From NCBI GenBank assembly GCA_031274495.1, contig JAISQB010000025.1, positions 1 to 43,097 of the forward strand: a stretch of 43,097 nucleotides of DNA, given 5' to 3'. A model generated the notes under the pieces. That model searched no databases. It worked only from the letters and a program-made list of their open reading frames with translations, and was not told the origin of the DNA. The DNA is from Campylobacteraceae bacterium. Lineage in GTDB: Bacteria; Campylobacterota; Campylobacteria; Campylobacterales; Campylobacteraceae. This document shows, piece after piece, positions 29,169-43,097 of the stretch. The stretch's first letter is position 1. Each line of letters begins with the position of its first letter. A program made the position numbers and the translations under genes.

Positions 29169-31415
29169 ATGCTTGGTTTTTCAACAAATGCTTTAAGGAC
29201 AAATCTGTCCGAATATTCAACGGCGGCAGCATCTAAAGATACGGTTAGCCCGTCAGCGGCGATTGGCTCGATATTGTGCAAGCTCTTATCCAAAATTGTT
29301 CCTCTTGTTTTCATTTCATTGCTTTTTGTCGGCTGTGGACCATATACGGTTACATTTCTTGATGATAGCGACAATGCGATAGCCACTATGAGTTCAAGCA
29401 TGAACAGTACCATAACGGTTCCTACGGCTCCAGATAAAGCGGGTTACACATTTACCGGCTGGAAAGAGGTCAACGGGACAGCAGTAATCCCCATAGGCGT
29501 AACCTCATATCTTATATCAAAAACCATATTTTTCAAGGCGCAATATATATCAGATGCCGATATGGTCCATACGGCGATATTTTTAGATGACGATAACAAC
29601 AAGATAGCGATACTAAAAGCAGCGCAAAGCTCGCATATAACTACCCCCACAGCCCCACCGACTAAAGCGCAACACACCTTCAAAGGTTGGCAAGAGGTGG
29701 GCAAAAGCGGCACTATCGCGGCAGGCGCCTCTTATACGCTGACAAAAAATGCCTTTTTTAAGGCAAAGTATGAGTTAGACACGGGGCGTTACAAAGTCTC
29801 ATTTTACGATGCCGCTCTTAAGCTTTTAAGTTCTGATATCATTACCGTCGGCAGCGGCATAAACCTCAATACAAAAGCCTCCGCTCTTGGCGTGGCAAAT
29901 TGGTACAAGGCAAAAGAGACATCCCCAACAGTCGGCACTTTCACACCTGATAGCAGTATCAACTTTTACGCCGCCGCTAATGTTATAGAGATAAGCGACC
30001 AAGCGGGATTAAGCGATATCAGAAATAATTTATCGGGTAAATATATCCTCATAAATGATATAGTTTTAGAGAGCAGCGGCGCGGGATTTGACGCGAATGG
30101 TTGGCGACCTATCGGTCATCACGCTGCCCATATCTATGATAACCCATCCACCCCTTTTGAAGGTATTTTCAATGGCAACGGATACGCTATTAGTAATTTG
30201 CAGATAGATAGACCATCTACCAATTATATCGGCATTTTTGGATACGCTAAGGGCGCTGCCATAACAAATTTGGGTATTCTAAGCAGTGAGATAAAGGGGA
30301 ATCAGCATGTCGGCAGTATCGCGGGAATGTTCGAGAGTTCAACGATAGCCAATAGCTACTCTGCGGGAAGCGTTAACGCAGATGGAATGAATGTAGGTGG
30401 TATTGTGGGATATACCGATAAATCAACGATAACCGACATTTACTTCATAGGAGGCGTTAAAGGATTTAGCGGCATCGGCGGTGTCACGGGATATGCCGGC
30501 AGTTCAGCAATAACCAATAGCTACTCCACAGGAAGCATTAGCGGGACTTTCAATATCGGCGGCATCATCGGAGATATCAGTGGTTCAACGGTAACCAATA
30601 GCTACTCCCAAGCAAGCGTTAGCGGGGATGACAATATCGGCGGTATCGCGGGGTGGATTTATGTCGGCAATATAGCCGGCAGTTACTCTGCGGGGAGTGT
30701 TAGCGGAGTTGACAGAGTCGGCGGTATCGCGGGAGACGCCGCTAATATCAATATAACCAACAGCTACTCTACGGGAAATATTATCGGAACCAATTATATC
30801 GGCGGTATCGCTGGAGAGAGCAGTAACTCAAAGATAGACAACAGTTACTCCGAGGCAAGCGTCAGTGGAGTTGACAGTATCGGCGGTATCGCTGGACTTG
30901 TTCATAGCTCGACGATAAGCAACAGCTACTTTACGGGAAGCACTAACGGAGATAAACATATCGGTGGTATCGCGGGATATATTAACCTCCACGCAGTGAT
31001 AACCAATAACTATGCTACCGGAAATGTCAAAGGAAGCAGCGATGTCGGCGGTATAGTTGGAGCTATCGGGGAGTCGTATGAAGAAAGTCTGATTCCTAAA
31101 ATTGACTCCACCATAACCAATAACGCCGCCATCAATCAAGCAGTTCAAGGCACATTCAATGTCAATCGCGTACTTGGGTATCTGCTTTCGGATAACGGAG
31201 AGGTTAAAAACAATTTTGCAAGAGCCATAGGGGGAAGATTCAGCGATCCCAATAAAGTTGTGAACGCAGGCATAGGAAAAGCGGACAGCGATTTTAAAAC
31301 GCAATCAACCTATTCAAATAATCTCGGCTGGAAATTCGGCAACAACGACGCCAACCCTTGGAAGATAAACGCAAGCAAAAACAACGGCTACCCATATCTA
31401 TACTGGCAAGAATAA
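29169..31415 (+). CDS. Repeat-rich surface lipoprotein with InlB-type and GLUG repeats (paralogue 1)
   Basis: The 748 aa protein has residues 1-~40 as a polar extension (TNAL, SKDT), then a hydrophobic segment ending in the lipobox-like LLFVGC (Cys56). Next are two InlB_B/Listeria-Bacteroides-type repeats (~57-120 and ~125-198; AGYTFTGWKEV and QHTFKGWQEV), a third related unit (~200-265), and a unique domain. About ten GLUG repeats of ~27 residues follow (~375-640), of the form GGIAGxxxxSxITNSYSTGSVSG. The C-terminus is NNGYPYLYWQE. Such repeats occur in surface adhesin-like proteins; ligand unknown. It is convergent with paralogue 2 at 31747-33489. Confidence 0.8.
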   Translation: MLGFSTNALRTNLSEYSTAAASKDTVSPSAAIGSILCKLLSKIVPLVFISLLFVGCGPYTVTFLDDSDNAIATMSSSMNSTITVPTAPDKAGYTFTGWKEVNGTAVIPIGVTSYLISKTIFFKAQYISDADMVHTAIFLDDDNNKIAILKAAQSSHITTPTAPPTKAQHTFKGWQEVGKSGTIAAGASYTLTKNAFFKAKYELDTGRYKVSFYDAALKLLSSDIITVGSGINLNTKASALGVANWYKAKETSPTVGTFTPDSSINFYAAANVIEISDQAGLSDIRNNLSGKYILINDIVLESSGAGFDANGWRPIGHHAAHIYDNPSTPFEGIFNGNGYAISNLQIDRPSTNYIGIFGYAKGAAITNLGILSSEIKGNQHVGSIAGMFESSTIANSYSAGSVNADGMNVGGIVGYTDKSTITDIYFIGGVKGFSGIGGVTGYAGSSAITNSYSTGSISGTFNIGGIIGDISGSTVTNSYSQASVSGDDNIGGIAGWIYVGNIAGSYSAGSVSGVDRVGGIAGDAANINITNSYSTGNIIGTNYIGGIAGESSNSKIDNSYSEASVSGVDSIGGIAGLVHSSTISNSYFTGSTNGDKHIGGIAGYINLHAVITNNYATGNVKGSSDVGGIVGAIGESYEESLIPKIDSTITNNAAINQAVQGTFNVNRVLGYLLSDNGEVKNNFARAIGGRFSDPNKVVNAGIGKADSDFKTQSTYSNNLGWKFGNNDANPWKINASKNNGYPYLYWQE

Positions 31416-31746: not shown

Positions 31747-33489
31747 TTACAACGCTTGCCAATATAGATATGGGTAGCCGTTGTTTTTGCTTGAGTCTAT
31801 CTTCCATATGCCTGTAGTAGCATTGAAATACCAACCAAGATTCACATATACCCCTTCCAGCTTAAATTGATTGTCCGGTGTTCCCAGTCCGGCATACGCA
31901 TCATCATCACTGGGGCTTGCCAAGTTACTTCTTGCAAGGTTATTCAATATTGTATTGCTGTAGATATCCTTAATATATCCGACAACACGATTAACATTTT
32001 CGGAACCTGAGATGGAAGGATTAATAGCAACATTATTGGTTATTGAGCTACCATAAGCAAATCCGGTGATGCCACCTACATTTTTTGCCGTCGGACCACC
32101 AATGATTCCCGTAGAGTAGCTATTGACTATTGAGGTACCACTATTACTATACCCCACGATACCGCCTATATGTTCATCCGTTCCGCTAACGCTTCCCGTA
32201 GCGTAACTGTTCGCTATTGAGCCGCCATCGCTCGTACCCACGATACCACCGGCAATGCGATTTGTGTTAACATTTCCGGTGGAATAGCTAATGGCTATTG
32301 AACCTCTGCTATTCTCTCCGGCGATACCACCAACAGCACCTACTCCGTTGACATTTCCTGTAGCGTAGCTGCTGACTATACTACCGTAGTTCCAAACTGC
32401 TCCGGCGATACCACCAATATATTCACCCGTTCCGCTAACGCTTCCCGTAGTGTAACTGTTGATTATGTCGCTATGATACGATATTCCGGCGATACCACCA
32501 ACATAAAAATATCCATCAACATTTCCTTTAGTATAACTATTGGTTATTGAGCCATCGGTAATATATCCGACGATACCGCCGACATGTTTATCTCCTCTAA
32601 TACCGTAGGTATCTATCACGACTCCCAGATTTTTAACCTCACCGCCTTTTATAGTGCCAAATAGCCCAATATAATCAGTAGATGGACTATTAATCCAAAG
32701 TCCCGATATAGTGTGTCCATTGCCATTGAAAACGCCTGTGAAAGGATTGTTCTGATTATAGCCGATAGGAAACCAACCCTCCACGTCAAATCCGACGCCG
32801 GCACCCAATGCTATATCGCTTTGCAATATATATCTGCCCGCCAAAGACGCTGCATTTCTGTTGATGGCAGCCAATTCTGTTTGAGTTTTTACCTCCGTAA
32901 CACCTGCACTTGCATAAAGAGTAATATCCTCGGTGGGCGTAAAAGCTCCGCTTATTGAGGCTGATTGTCCCACCTTGTACCAGTTTGATATGCCGTACTT
33001 GTTGCTAAGGTCTATGCTATTGCCTTTTGAAACACCCTCAACTCCTAAAAACTCAAGATTGGCGTCGTAAAACGAAACCGCATAATCCCCCTCCAGCCTA
33101 TACTGCGCTTGAAAAAAGGTTATGGATTTTGTCGGTCTGTAAGATGTTGCATTTGCCGCTATTGTTGCAGTTCCGTTGACCTCTTTCCATTCCGTAAAAA
33201 TATAGCCTGCTCTAACGGGAGCAGCAGGAACGGTTACAGATGAAAAAACTGTTCCTGCCTCCGCTTGTGATATCAGCCTATTGTCGTAATCAATAAATGC
33301 AACCGTATTCCCGCAACCTGCAAGTAGTACGGCGACAAAGAAAAGGGGGATTATCCTACTGAAAGAAAAAAACTTTCTTTTGAGATAAGCCGATATTGAG
33401 CCTGTCGTATCTTTAGATGTCGACGAAGCCAACGCCGCTTGATGTTTGGACGGATTTACCGTCAACGCATTTGTTAAAAAACCAAACAT
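31747..33489 (-). CDS. Repeat-rich surface lipoprotein with InlB-type and GLUG repeats (paralogue 2)
   Basis: The 580 aa paralogue of the lipoprotein at 29169-31415 shares the N-terminal extension (MFGFLTNALTVN...SKDT), a hydrophobic segment ending LLAGC (Cys59), one InlB-type repeat (AGYIFTEWKEVNGTA), a second related unit (FYDANLEFLG), and about seven GLUG repeats (~300-490; GGIAGAVWNYGSIVSSYATGNVNG and similar). The C-terminus NNGYPYLYWQAL is almost the same. GGAGG lies 6-7 nt upstream of the ATG, which supports the start. It has one InlB module and about three GLUG units fewer than paralogue 1. It follows nifK on the same strand, but a 252-bp gap with a hairpin separates them, so it is probably a separate unit. 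Confidence 0.8.
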   Translation of the reverse strand: MFGFLTNALTVNPSKHQAALASSTSKDTTGSISAYLKRKFFSFSRIIPLFFVAVLLAGCGNTVAFIDYDNRLISQAEAGTVFSSVTVPAAPVRAGYIFTEWKEVNGTATIAANATSYRPTKSITFFQAQYRLEGDYAVSFYDANLEFLGVEGVSKGNSIDLSNKYGISNWYKVGQSASISGAFTPTEDITLYASAGVTEVKTQTELAAINRNAASLAGRYILQSDIALGAGVGFDVEGWFPIGYNQNNPFTGVFNGNGHTISGLWINSPSTDYIGLFGTIKGGEVKNLGVVIDTYGIRGDKHVGGIVGYITDGSITNSYTKGNVDGYFYVGGIAGISYHSDIINSYTTGSVSGTGEYIGGIAGAVWNYGSIVSSYATGNVNGVGAVGGIAGENSRGSIAISYSTGNVNTNRIAGGIVGTSDGGSIANSYATGSVSGTDEHIGGIVGYSNSGTSIVNSYSTGIIGGPTAKNVGGITGFAYGSSITNNVAINPSISGSENVNRVVGYIKDIYSNTILNNLARSNLASPSDDDAYAGLGTPDNQFKLEGVYVNLGWYFNATTGIWKIDSSKNNGYPYLYWQAL

Positions 33490-36820: not shown

Positions 36821-37183
36821 TTACGACACTTTAATCCTGTATAGATTCATATCGTCAAGTTTCCTGCAAATCTCCGCCGTCTTCGCGCCGTCAACGGCTT
36901 TGCTTACCTCGCTTATCTGGTATTTGTTCGTGTAAAATACCATCTTATACTCGCCCTCGATATCAGACTTCGTATAATAATCCACAAAAGCGGTGAACAA
37001 AAAAGTCCCCTTATCATCCGCGCTAAACCGCTCTATCTCCTTGCCCTCTCTCGTCTCGCTCACAAACTCTATCTTGCTGTAAGTGGATATATCGCCCGCA
37101 CCTGCGGTAACTTTCTCTACGACCTTATCAAATCCTATCTTATTTCCCTCGCTCGCGGGGAAGTGGTATCCGCAAATAAACAT
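36821..37183 (-). CDS. Unknown protein encoded between nifH and nifD
   Basis: The 120 aa soluble protein starts MFICGYHFPASEGNK and has no signal peptide or membrane segment. It is mixed alpha/beta, with strands near 42-90 (IEFVSE, GTFLFTAFVDYYT, YKMVFYTNKYQ) and a C-terminal helix ending LDDMNLYRIKVS. Two cysteines (4 and ~106) are isolated, so no cluster site is evident. GAAAGGAG sits 7 nt upstream of the ATG. It lies 14 bp after nifH on the same strand and must be co-transcribed. It lacks the PII signature, so it is not NifI, which occupies this slot in methanogens. No family is recognised. Confidence 0.85.
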   Translation of the reverse strand: MFICGYHFPASEGNKIGFDKVVEKVTAGAGDISTYSKIEFVSETREGKEIERFSADDKGTFLFTAFVDYYTKSDIEGEYKMVFYTNKYQISEVSKAVDGAKTAEICRKLDDMNLYRIKVS

Positions 37184-40988: not shown

Positions 40989-42212
40989 TTATCGGTTCAC
41001 TTTGTATGCTCTTTTGCGCTCTCTTGAGCTACCGATACCAATACGGCTTCTATATTTTGTGATGGTTCGTTTTGAGACGCTGACGCCGAATTTTTGTTGT
41101 ACGAGCACTAAAAGGTCGTCGTCTTTCAGCGGGTTTTCTTTGTCTTCATATTGTATGCGCTCGCTTAAAAAGTTTTTGATTTGCGAGGAGGAGATATTTT
41201 TTGATGAGATTGCGCTTGAGAAGAAAAACTTCAAAGGATAAATTCCCCTTTTTGTCTCTATATATTTATTGGCAACGGCTCTTGATATGGTGGATTCGGA
41301 TAGGGAGAGTTCGGATGCCAGTTCGACCATTCCAAGGGGTTTTAACTCTCCGCCTACAAAAAAGTTTATCTGCTTTTCCACTATCAAAAGGACTATTTTG
41401 TAAAGCGTGCTTTTTCTAAGTTCAAGCAAACTGACTATTTCGCGCGCCTCCTTTAACTTATCTTTAATATTCTTCTGCTCGCTTAAAAAGCTGCCTTGCA
41501 CTATGATATCGGGATAATAGTCGCTATTTATGCGCACCTTTATATCATCCCCCACATCTATAAAAAAGTCGGGTATTATCTGTTGCGAAAAGGCTTTATA
41601 CTCGATGGCGGGGATATTGGAGAAGTTTTTTATGGTGTTCATAGCCTCATGAAAACGCTCGTGTTCCGCGAAACGGTCTATCTTTGACATATTTTTTATC
41701 ATCTCAAGACACAAGGCGTATAATTCATCGTCAATCTCATCCAACTCGTCAAGCTGAAATATAAAAGCCTCTTTTTGGTCTACCGCTCCTATCCCTTTTG
41801 GCTCCAGCTTTGAAAATCGTTTTCTGATACTCTCCACAAACGCCGTGCTTGTGTGACACAAAGAGGCGATGCGCTTTATATTTCCGTCAAAATATCCGTC
41901 TTCGTTGATATCGCAGAGTATCTCGTAAGCTATTTTTTGCGATAGTCCGGTAGGGAAAAGCGGAGGGATTAACTGCGCTAAAACATCCTCGTGAAACGAT
42001 TCGGAGTTTAATGCGAACTCTTCCACAAACTCACCGCTTTTAGGTATATTTCGCTCTTGCGGGTATCTTATCTCCAAAAACGGATTTTCGCGTGAGATGA
42101 GTTGCAAATGTTCATTTAACTCGTCCAAAGACGACAGTAGCAGGGGCTGCCATAATTTAAAAGATAAGTTAAGAGTGGGTTTGGTTTGTAACCTTAAGCT
42201 TGTCGTTTTCAT
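40989..42212 (-). CDS. rpoN: RNA polymerase sigma-54 factor
   Basis: The 407 aa sigma factor has an N-terminal activator-interacting region (LRLQTKPTLNLSFKLWQPLLLSSLDELNEHL, residues ~6-36), an acidic and core-binding middle, a helix-turn-helix region (GMVELASELSLSESTISRAVANKY), and the diagnostic RpoN box SKRTITKYRSRIGI near the C-terminus. It directs transcription from -24/-12 promoters, such as the one upstream of nifH. In Campylobacterota sigma-54 also drives flagellar genes. A hairpin lies immediately before the ATG and no Shine-Dalgarno is visible. Confidence 0.95.
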   Translation of the reverse strand: MKTTSLRLQTKPTLNLSFKLWQPLLLSSLDELNEHLQLISRENPFLEIRYPQERNIPKSGEFVEEFALNSESFHEDVLAQLIPPLFPTGLSQKIAYEILCDINEDGYFDGNIKRIASLCHTSTAFVESIRKRFSKLEPKGIGAVDQKEAFIFQLDELDEIDDELYALCLEMIKNMSKIDRFAEHERFHEAMNTIKNFSNIPAIEYKAFSQQIIPDFFIDVGDDIKVRINSDYYPDIIVQGSFLSEQKNIKDKLKEAREIVSLLELRKSTLYKIVLLIVEKQINFFVGGELKPLGMVELASELSLSESTISRAVANKYIETKRGIYPLKFFFSSAISSKNISSSQIKNFLSERIQYEDKENPLKDDDLLVLVQQKFGVSVSKRTITKYRSRIGIGSSRERKRAYKVNR

Positions 42213-42265: not shown

Positions 42266-42562
42266 TTAATATTTTATGCGGACTACACCGTTTGGTCTCT
42301 CTATCTTCATTTGACAGGAGAGCCTCAAATTTTGCGTATTGAGCCCCGCGCAAACCTCTTTGATGACCTTTATCTCTTTGGCGTTTATCTCCGATAAGAA
42401 CTCCATCCCCTGCACTATCTCCACCACGCAGGTCCCGCATTCGCCGTTACGGCAGCCAAAAGGCAGCGCGCTTCCCGCGGCTTCGACCACATCTTGTATC
42501 GTAGTGCCGGGCTTTACATTGATAGCCAGAAAATCGTTTATAATCTCCACTCTCGTCATCAT
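42266..42562 (-). CDS. 2Fe-2S ferredoxin (plant/adrenodoxin-like fold)
   Basis: The 98 aa small electron carrier has cluster motif CRNGECGTC (Cys37, 42, 45) plus Cys83 (RLSCQMK), the pattern of plant-type 2Fe-2S ferredoxins. Cys71 is extra. It may supply electrons to nitrogenase or its cofactor assembly. The start is tandem ATGs at 42562/42559; the first overlaps the stop of the preceding gene as ATGA, with AAAGGA upstream. It is embedded in a nif-linked unit; partner identity is inferred. Confidence 0.88.
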   Translation of the reverse strand: MMTRVEIINDFLAINVKPGTTIQDVVEAAGSALPFGCRNGECGTCVVEIVQGMEFLSEINAKEIKVIKEVCAGLNTQNLRLSCQMKIERPNGVVRIKY

Positions 42563-42897
42563 TTTGTATCCTTTGATTTTTTATAAGGTTTGACAAGCAC
42601 ATCGCCTTTTACCAGCATCATCGACGCGACGCGTACTTTGGGGCTTATGGTGTACTGCTGGGAGATTTGCGCCTCTTTGTCGCTGATAGCGCCGAACTTT
42701 TGCAATATCTCCAACTCCTCATCCTCCGTGTATGTCGTAGGCTCGTCAAATATATGCTCGATACTGAGCAATCCGCCCTCCGCACCACTTATATCTATGC
42801 CCTTTTCCTGTGCCAAACGGATGATCGGCTCGCCGATCTTGGCGTCATAGATACCGTCCTTTTCTTCATCAAAATGCATAAAGATAACTTTTGCCAT
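42559..42897 (-). CDS. Cysteine-free ferredoxin-fold protein (pseudo-ferredoxin)
   Basis: The 112 aa protein follows Isc-type (adrenodoxin-like) 2Fe-2S ferredoxins along its length: GIYDAKIGEPIIRLAQEKGIDISGAEGGLLSIEHIF parallels the strand, helix and cluster loop, and VRVASMMLVKGDVLVKPY parallels the last strands. All four cluster cysteines are replaced; AEGG stands where ACGG is expected and the protein has no cysteine at all. It therefore cannot bind a conventional cluster. It overlaps the real ferredoxin gene by 4 nt, so a partner or chaperone role is likely. RBS TAGGAG is clear. Fold assignment is by eye. Confidence 0.7.
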   Translation of the reverse strand: MAKVIFMHFDEEKDGIYDAKIGEPIIRLAQEKGIDISGAEGGLLSIEHIFDEPTTYTEDEELEILQKFGAISDKEAQISQQYTISPKVRVASMMLVKGDVLVKPYKKSKDTK

Positions 42898-42905
42898 AAC
42901 TGCTC

Positions 42906-43097
42906 CTAATTAAAATTTTTATCTTCGTAGTGATTTTTAAGCCACTCAAGCTCCTCAGCTTCCAAGTCCCTATATGGCTCTTCCGCCGCCAGCTCGCTAT
43001 CTTTGCACCCTACCACTTCGACAGCAGCGTCCAAGTCCATAAAATGCACCTCATACACGCGTATCACCTGCAAAAATTCGCCGATCTTACGCACATA
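42906..43097 (-). CDS. nifZ: NifZ-like protein, C-terminal part (5' end outside window)
   Basis: The visible 63 residues run off the right edge, since the frame is open to the last base. YVRKIGEFLQVIRVYEVHFMDLDAAVEVVGCKDSEL matches the NifZ core pattern of G-Y-V-x-x-I-G-x-F-L-Q, Y-x-V-H-F and V-G-C-x-x-x-E-L. NifZ assists assembly of the second P-cluster of MoFe protein. A GTG at 43094 could open the frame, but the motif begins before it, so truncation by the window is more likely. It ends 8 bp before the pseudo-ferredoxin gene. Confidence 0.7.
   Translation of the reverse strand, partial: YVRKIGEFLQVIRVYEVHFMDLDAAVEVVGCKDSELAAEEPYRDLEAEELEWLKNHYEDKNFN

Follow-up and report, generated by a model that had tools for sequence, protein, structure and literature searches.

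FeSII, or Shethna protein II, is the nitrogenase oxygen-protection ferredoxin of Azotobacter, and together with the MoFe and Fe proteins it is described as forming an inactive, O2-resistant complex, with an oxidation-induced conformational change as the activating step (PMC12585515). This activation has been disputed: a large oxidation-induced opening of FeSII was proposed in 2016 and reread in 2024 as a domain swap induced by crystallisation (PMC11301756), and cryo-EM work on the complex again reports an oxidation-induced change in the protein (PMC12585515). In the FeSII structure, a lid helix (residues 68-79, including residue 70) lies over the cluster (PMC11301756). A role in O2 protection has also been suggested for another 2Fe-2S ferredoxin associated with Mo nitrogenase, FdxD (FdV) of Rhodobacter capsulatus, which differs from the protein described here in that its cluster is kept (PMC10936413). 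Ferredoxin folds that lack cluster ligands are known from mitochondrial complex I, where plant mFDX-like or C1-FDX proteins have become structural components of this large redox enzyme and show a progressive loss of cysteines; they are eukaryotic, of unrelated lineage and with an unrelated partner, and the land-plant forms keep three of the four cysteines (PMC10069907, PMC11446459). The mFDX-like protein is the closest precedent for the change proposed below (PMC10069907). Among the top matches in the open-licence literature, no cluster-less FeSII was found.

The window analyzed here, a 43,097-nucleotide stretch of DNA from a Campylobacteraceae bacterium, contains nifH, nifD and nifK together with a gene for a ferredoxin-like protein that has lost its cluster ligands (Table 1). 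The cysteine-free reading frame put forward by the original prediction is real, encoding 112 residues with zero cysteines, and it starts 8 nt after the end of nifZ, which encodes a P-cluster assembly factor, and overlaps the following Fer2 ferredoxin gene by 4 nt at ATGA. Directly downstream of this ferredoxin gene lies rpoN (sigma-54; 40989-42212 (-)). Between nifH and nifD, a 120-aa open-reading frame without a Pfam match (36821-37183 (-)) has relatives in 60 of 61 nifHDK loci, the window counted, which suggests a conserved nif gene of Campylobacterota that so far has no name. Beside nifK, a lipoprotein-like pair with GLUG motifs and Listeria-Bacteroides repeats is arranged end to end (29169-31415 (+) and 31747-33489 (-)).

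Table 1 Features of the cluster-less gene and its neighbors in the window
Feature	Position	Strand	Basis or remark
Genuine 2Fe-2S ferredoxin, 98 aa	42266..42562	(-)	Full Pfam Fer2 match, E 6e-13
Cluster-less FeSII-type protein, 112 aa, zero Cys	42559..42897	(-)	ATG start; ORF, alignment, AF2 model
Former fourth-cysteine site, codons 90-93	42619..42630	(-)	Alignment; V-A-S-M replacing L-A-C-Q
Codon 60 (Glu), lid helix	42718..42720	(-)	Aligns with FeSII residue 70; fixed in 35/35 cluster-less relatives compared
Shortened former cluster loop, codons 37-42, SGAEGG	42772..42789	(-)	Alignment; orthologues have C-x4-C-x2-C
Likely ribosome-binding site AGGAG	42903..42907	(-)	Overlaps nifZ stop codon; 5 nt before ATG of cluster-less gene
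NifZ, C-terminal part	42906..43097	(-)	Pfam NifZ, E 2e-7; contig end at 43097 cuts gene

Searched by itself, the window protein gave no useful match to Pfam or NCBIfam families and no significant one in the PDB (best E 0.11), and its assignment to FeSII depends on the profile of its family. A profile built from 57 relatives matched FeSII residues 1-113 with E-values from 2.7e-18 to 1.1e-15, the next ferredoxin following at 6.5e-4, and an intact orthologue alone reached Azotobacter FeSII (PDB 5ffi, 9cu1, 9iey) at 9e-14 to 2e-12, compared to 2e-3 for the next ferredoxin. Identity between the window protein and FeSII amounts to 24 of 103 aligned positions. A single-chain AF2 model of the window protein (57-row alignment; pLDDT 84.5, pTM 0.74) likewise matched ferredoxins, bearing out the predicted ferredoxin fold without a cluster beside nifZ and a true ferredoxin gene. 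Its best match was 9cu1_N, FeSII within the MoFe-Fe-FeSII filament (Foldseek E 2.6e-5; Z 14.4, rmsd 2.5 Å over 107 residues), compared to Z 9.3-10.3 for free FeSII and at most 10.0 for other ferredoxins, a gap between bound and free forms that may come in part from the incomplete N-loop of the closed free FeSII chain (PMC11301756). The model of an intact orthologue gave the same ranking (17.0 vs at most 12.2), indicating that the likeness to bound FeSII is a trait of the family and is not tied to cluster loss.

The architecture of the family agrees with this assignment. The match to 9cu1_N includes the extended N-loop and lid helix that FeSII carries on an adrenodoxin fold, and 35 residues separate the lid motif from the position of the fourth cysteine (C4) in 62 of 63 sequences, among them FeSII; the single miss is a truncated copy. 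Spacing between C3 and C4 is 51 residues in FeSII and 49-68 in the family. The original prediction had seen an Isc-ferredoxin pattern around the cluster loop, which does not hold: intact orthologues carry C-x4-C-x2-C...RLAC (ECQEGNCGSC) where the window copy reads SGAEGG--LL. Isc-type ferredoxins (TIGR02007 fdx_isc) share the adrenodoxin fold and differ in their cysteine pattern and in a shorter lid region; this class was rejected, as the window protein has no NCBIfam match and the family profile prefers FeSII, the closest relative of solved structure in both sequence and model comparisons. It is thus well supported that the window gene descends, in place, as an orthologue of the FeSII-type ferredoxin of Campylobacterota nif loci. 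By descent it groups with FeSII; as a [2Fe-2S] ferredoxin it is disqualified, since the four cluster cysteines that define FeSII are absent from the window copy.

The gene was present in 9 of 60 related genomes, and the seven named contigs with it belong to Campylobacteraceae MAGs, Sulfurospirillum, an uncultured epsilonproteobacterium and Sulfurovum, some copies being complete for the C-x4-C-x2-C...RLAC motif and others not. A phylum survey with an intact orthologue as query identified carriers in 57 of 397 Campylobacterota genomes. Matches to the nifD family were found in 76 of the 397 (73 above the curated cut-off), and all 57 carriers were among them, two (G255 and G393) with matches only below that cut-off, while the gene occurred in none of the 321 genomes lacking such a match. 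This link to nitrogenase genes is shared with FeSII. G255, whose copy has internal stops, was excluded from counts after the survey (57 to 56), and the 56 readable copies comprised 34 without the cluster motif and 22 with it. The extended set used for alignment held 37 cluster-less and 26 intact sequences, with FeSII counted as intact, and absence of the motif from 37 of these 63 is not a matter of chance. Five loci (L010, L011, L013, L014 and L015) were left out because their genomes were represented already, the truncated copy of G286 was excluded from trees of the cluster-less/intact gene and from its column counts, and the paralogue G387b was used neither in the flank trees nor in the second gene tree. 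Outside the nifZ-fdx slot, G387 carries a further, distant FeSII-like gene that is intact (L092:6011-6388 (-)). The copy of G255 (L100) is broken by stops and that of G286 (L085) changes frame near the C-terminus, and in both cases sequencing error is possible.

At a threshold of E 1e-8, no second intact copy was found in any cluster-less genome of the survey. Among the 76 genomes with a nifD-family match, 19 had no clear copy of the gene, including four (G240, G173, G280 and G281) whose kin with the same genus code carry a cluster-less copy, indicating that the gene is dispensable; cluster loss may sometimes run ahead of gene loss. Beyond the phylum, the search covered a plasmid collection, in which the intact orthologue had one match, in Methylococcus, and the window protein had none; cluster-less forms may exist outside Campylobacterota. 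Pfam Fer2 (PF00111) recognizes 23 of 57 family members, and the window copy is named by neither Pfam nor NCBIfam, so that genes of this kind have likely been overlooked.

Conservation of the gene pair, which the original prediction had suggested as a check, was borne out: the gene lies between nifZ and fdx, all on one strand, in 60 of 62 loci. The two exceptions are G387b, a distant paralogue, and a copy located at the end of a contig, where nifZ is still present. Because they occupy the same nifZ-X-fdx slot, a setting that distinguishes them from FeSII, intact and cluster-less genes are orthologous. The neighboring ferredoxin has retained its four cysteines in 60 of 60 true neighbors (two further rows of that set were the family gene itself), and overlaps or adjoins the gene throughout the 60 conserved loci, which would suit a heterodimer in which this ferredoxin supplies the cluster. 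The same ferredoxin, however, also adjoins intact orthologues, it is of a different subtype with a C3-C4 spacing of 35-39, none of its 98 columns changes with cluster loss, and FeSII itself is reported as a homodimer (PMC11301756), leaving such pairing quite improbable.

The position directly after nifZ is still more constant (61 of 62 loci) and would be consistent with an assembly or maturation factor that acts on immature nitrogenase together with NifZ, perhaps also with the adjacent ferredoxin, the cluster never having been central. Comparison of cluster-less with intact genomes points weakly the same way, with 2 of 124 NifZ columns separating the two groups compared to 0 of 98 in the ferredoxin and 0 of 1300 in NifHDK. 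Those two columns, however, sit in a variable stretch, and no convincing change that goes with cluster loss was seen in NifHDK, the ferredoxin or NifZ. The nearest solved relative by sequence and model is moreover FeSII, by model in its nitrogenase-bound form, and we regard an assembly role as unlikely, though less so than the heterodimer. Set beside the three roles offered by the original prediction (decoy, assembly platform or half of a heterodimer), that of a nitrogenase-binding scaffold would fit best.

C4 is absent from all 37 cluster-less relatives, while the first cysteine is kept in 4 of them, the second in 1 and the third in 27. Among 35 cluster-less sequences, C4 is replaced by S (20), P (14) or Q (1), and three positions cleanly differ from the 9 near intact orthologues. 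These are E60 (35/35; K, M, S, F or L in intact copies), position 90 (I in 29 and V in 6; L in intact copies) and M93 (35/35; Q in intact copies), aligned with FeSII residues 70, 100 and 103, positions 90 and 93 flanking C4. G022, in which C4 has become D, shares none of the three. E60, I/V90 and M93 may repack the emptied cluster site.

These changes could also be the start of decay, with cluster loss as the first step of pseudogenisation, and the intact orthologues that the original prediction had named as a sign of it do occupy the same slot; some kin also lack the gene, and single copies are truncated (G286) or carry stops (G255). Selection argues otherwise. NG86 dN/dS medians for cluster-less genes, calculated with many saturated pairs left out, were 0.083 within the own genus (5 usable pairs), 0.050 in the Sulfurospirillum group (72) and 0.115 in the f9 group (54), the same range as 0.089 for near (13) and 0.074 for far (17) intact copies. 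Moreover, 47 of the 112 window positions are identical in 35 or more of the 36 cluster-less proteins compared, and the loss is common to four family codes and a Sulfurovum contig. Cluster-less genes are under purifying selection, and values of about 0.05-0.12 indicate that they are not decaying. The pseudogene reading, in which selection should be relaxed, is therefore disfavored and highly improbable, also in view of the number of genomes with the loss.

The number of cluster losses depends in part on the tree used. On the NifHDK tree (61 rows), the cluster-less rows need six changes, at least four of them forced by well supported branches, and a single cluster-less clade is rejected (p = 0.011). 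The tree of NifZ plus ferredoxin (60 rows) needs four changes, at least three forced, and again rejects a single clade (p = 0.0007). On the gene's own tree, calculated without the loop and C4 columns, 35 cluster-less rows form one clade (99/95) with G022 apart, giving two changes, and support for that clade drops to 91/83 once nearby fixed columns are also removed. The conflict would be explained either by convergent losses or by an exchange of the middle gene without its neighbors. G022 stands as an independent loss on the gene tree and on the NifHDK tree alike. A minimum of two losses is firm, and there were likely more if the gene did not move between lineages by itself. Given the number of ligands involved, the direction was presumably from intact to cluster-less and not back.

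Taken together, we consider it somewhat probable that the window gene encodes an FeSII orthologue that has lost its [2Fe-2S] cluster and docks on nitrogenase through the lid helix and N-loop, giving a protected or standby state without a redox switch of its own. The cluster-less protein would bind the MoFe and Fe proteins through these conserved elements and, once docked, would hold the enzyme in that state, with the emptied site repacked by the exchange of C4 for S, P or Q, Q for M, L for I or V and the lid residue for E. The low identity to FeSII, the absence of the gene from kin and the lack of co-adaptation in NifHDK speak against this reading, as does the cost of a permanently binding inhibitor, which means that some gate must exist; it would come from elsewhere, with the redox or nucleotide state of the Fe protein, or the amount of protein, as the simplest sources. 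Retention of a cluster-less orthologue by selection speaks for binding, and not electron transfer, as the conserved function. More tentatively, and with somewhat less confidence than in docking itself, the losses may have been independent in several Campylobacterota lineages at the same locus, with convergent repacking at E60, I/V90 and M93, each giving a cluster-free docking protein gated by nitrogenase and conformational protection without [2Fe-2S].

The cluster has been removed naturally in dozens of species, and if the reading above is true, the family would offer a direct test of whether conformational protection requires the [2Fe-2S] cluster. Cluster-less proteins on nitrogenase could tell if the cluster acts as a switch, has a structural role or can be dispensed with, and they may provide a cluster-free, perhaps simpler protection protein for nitrogenase engineering in aerobic hosts.
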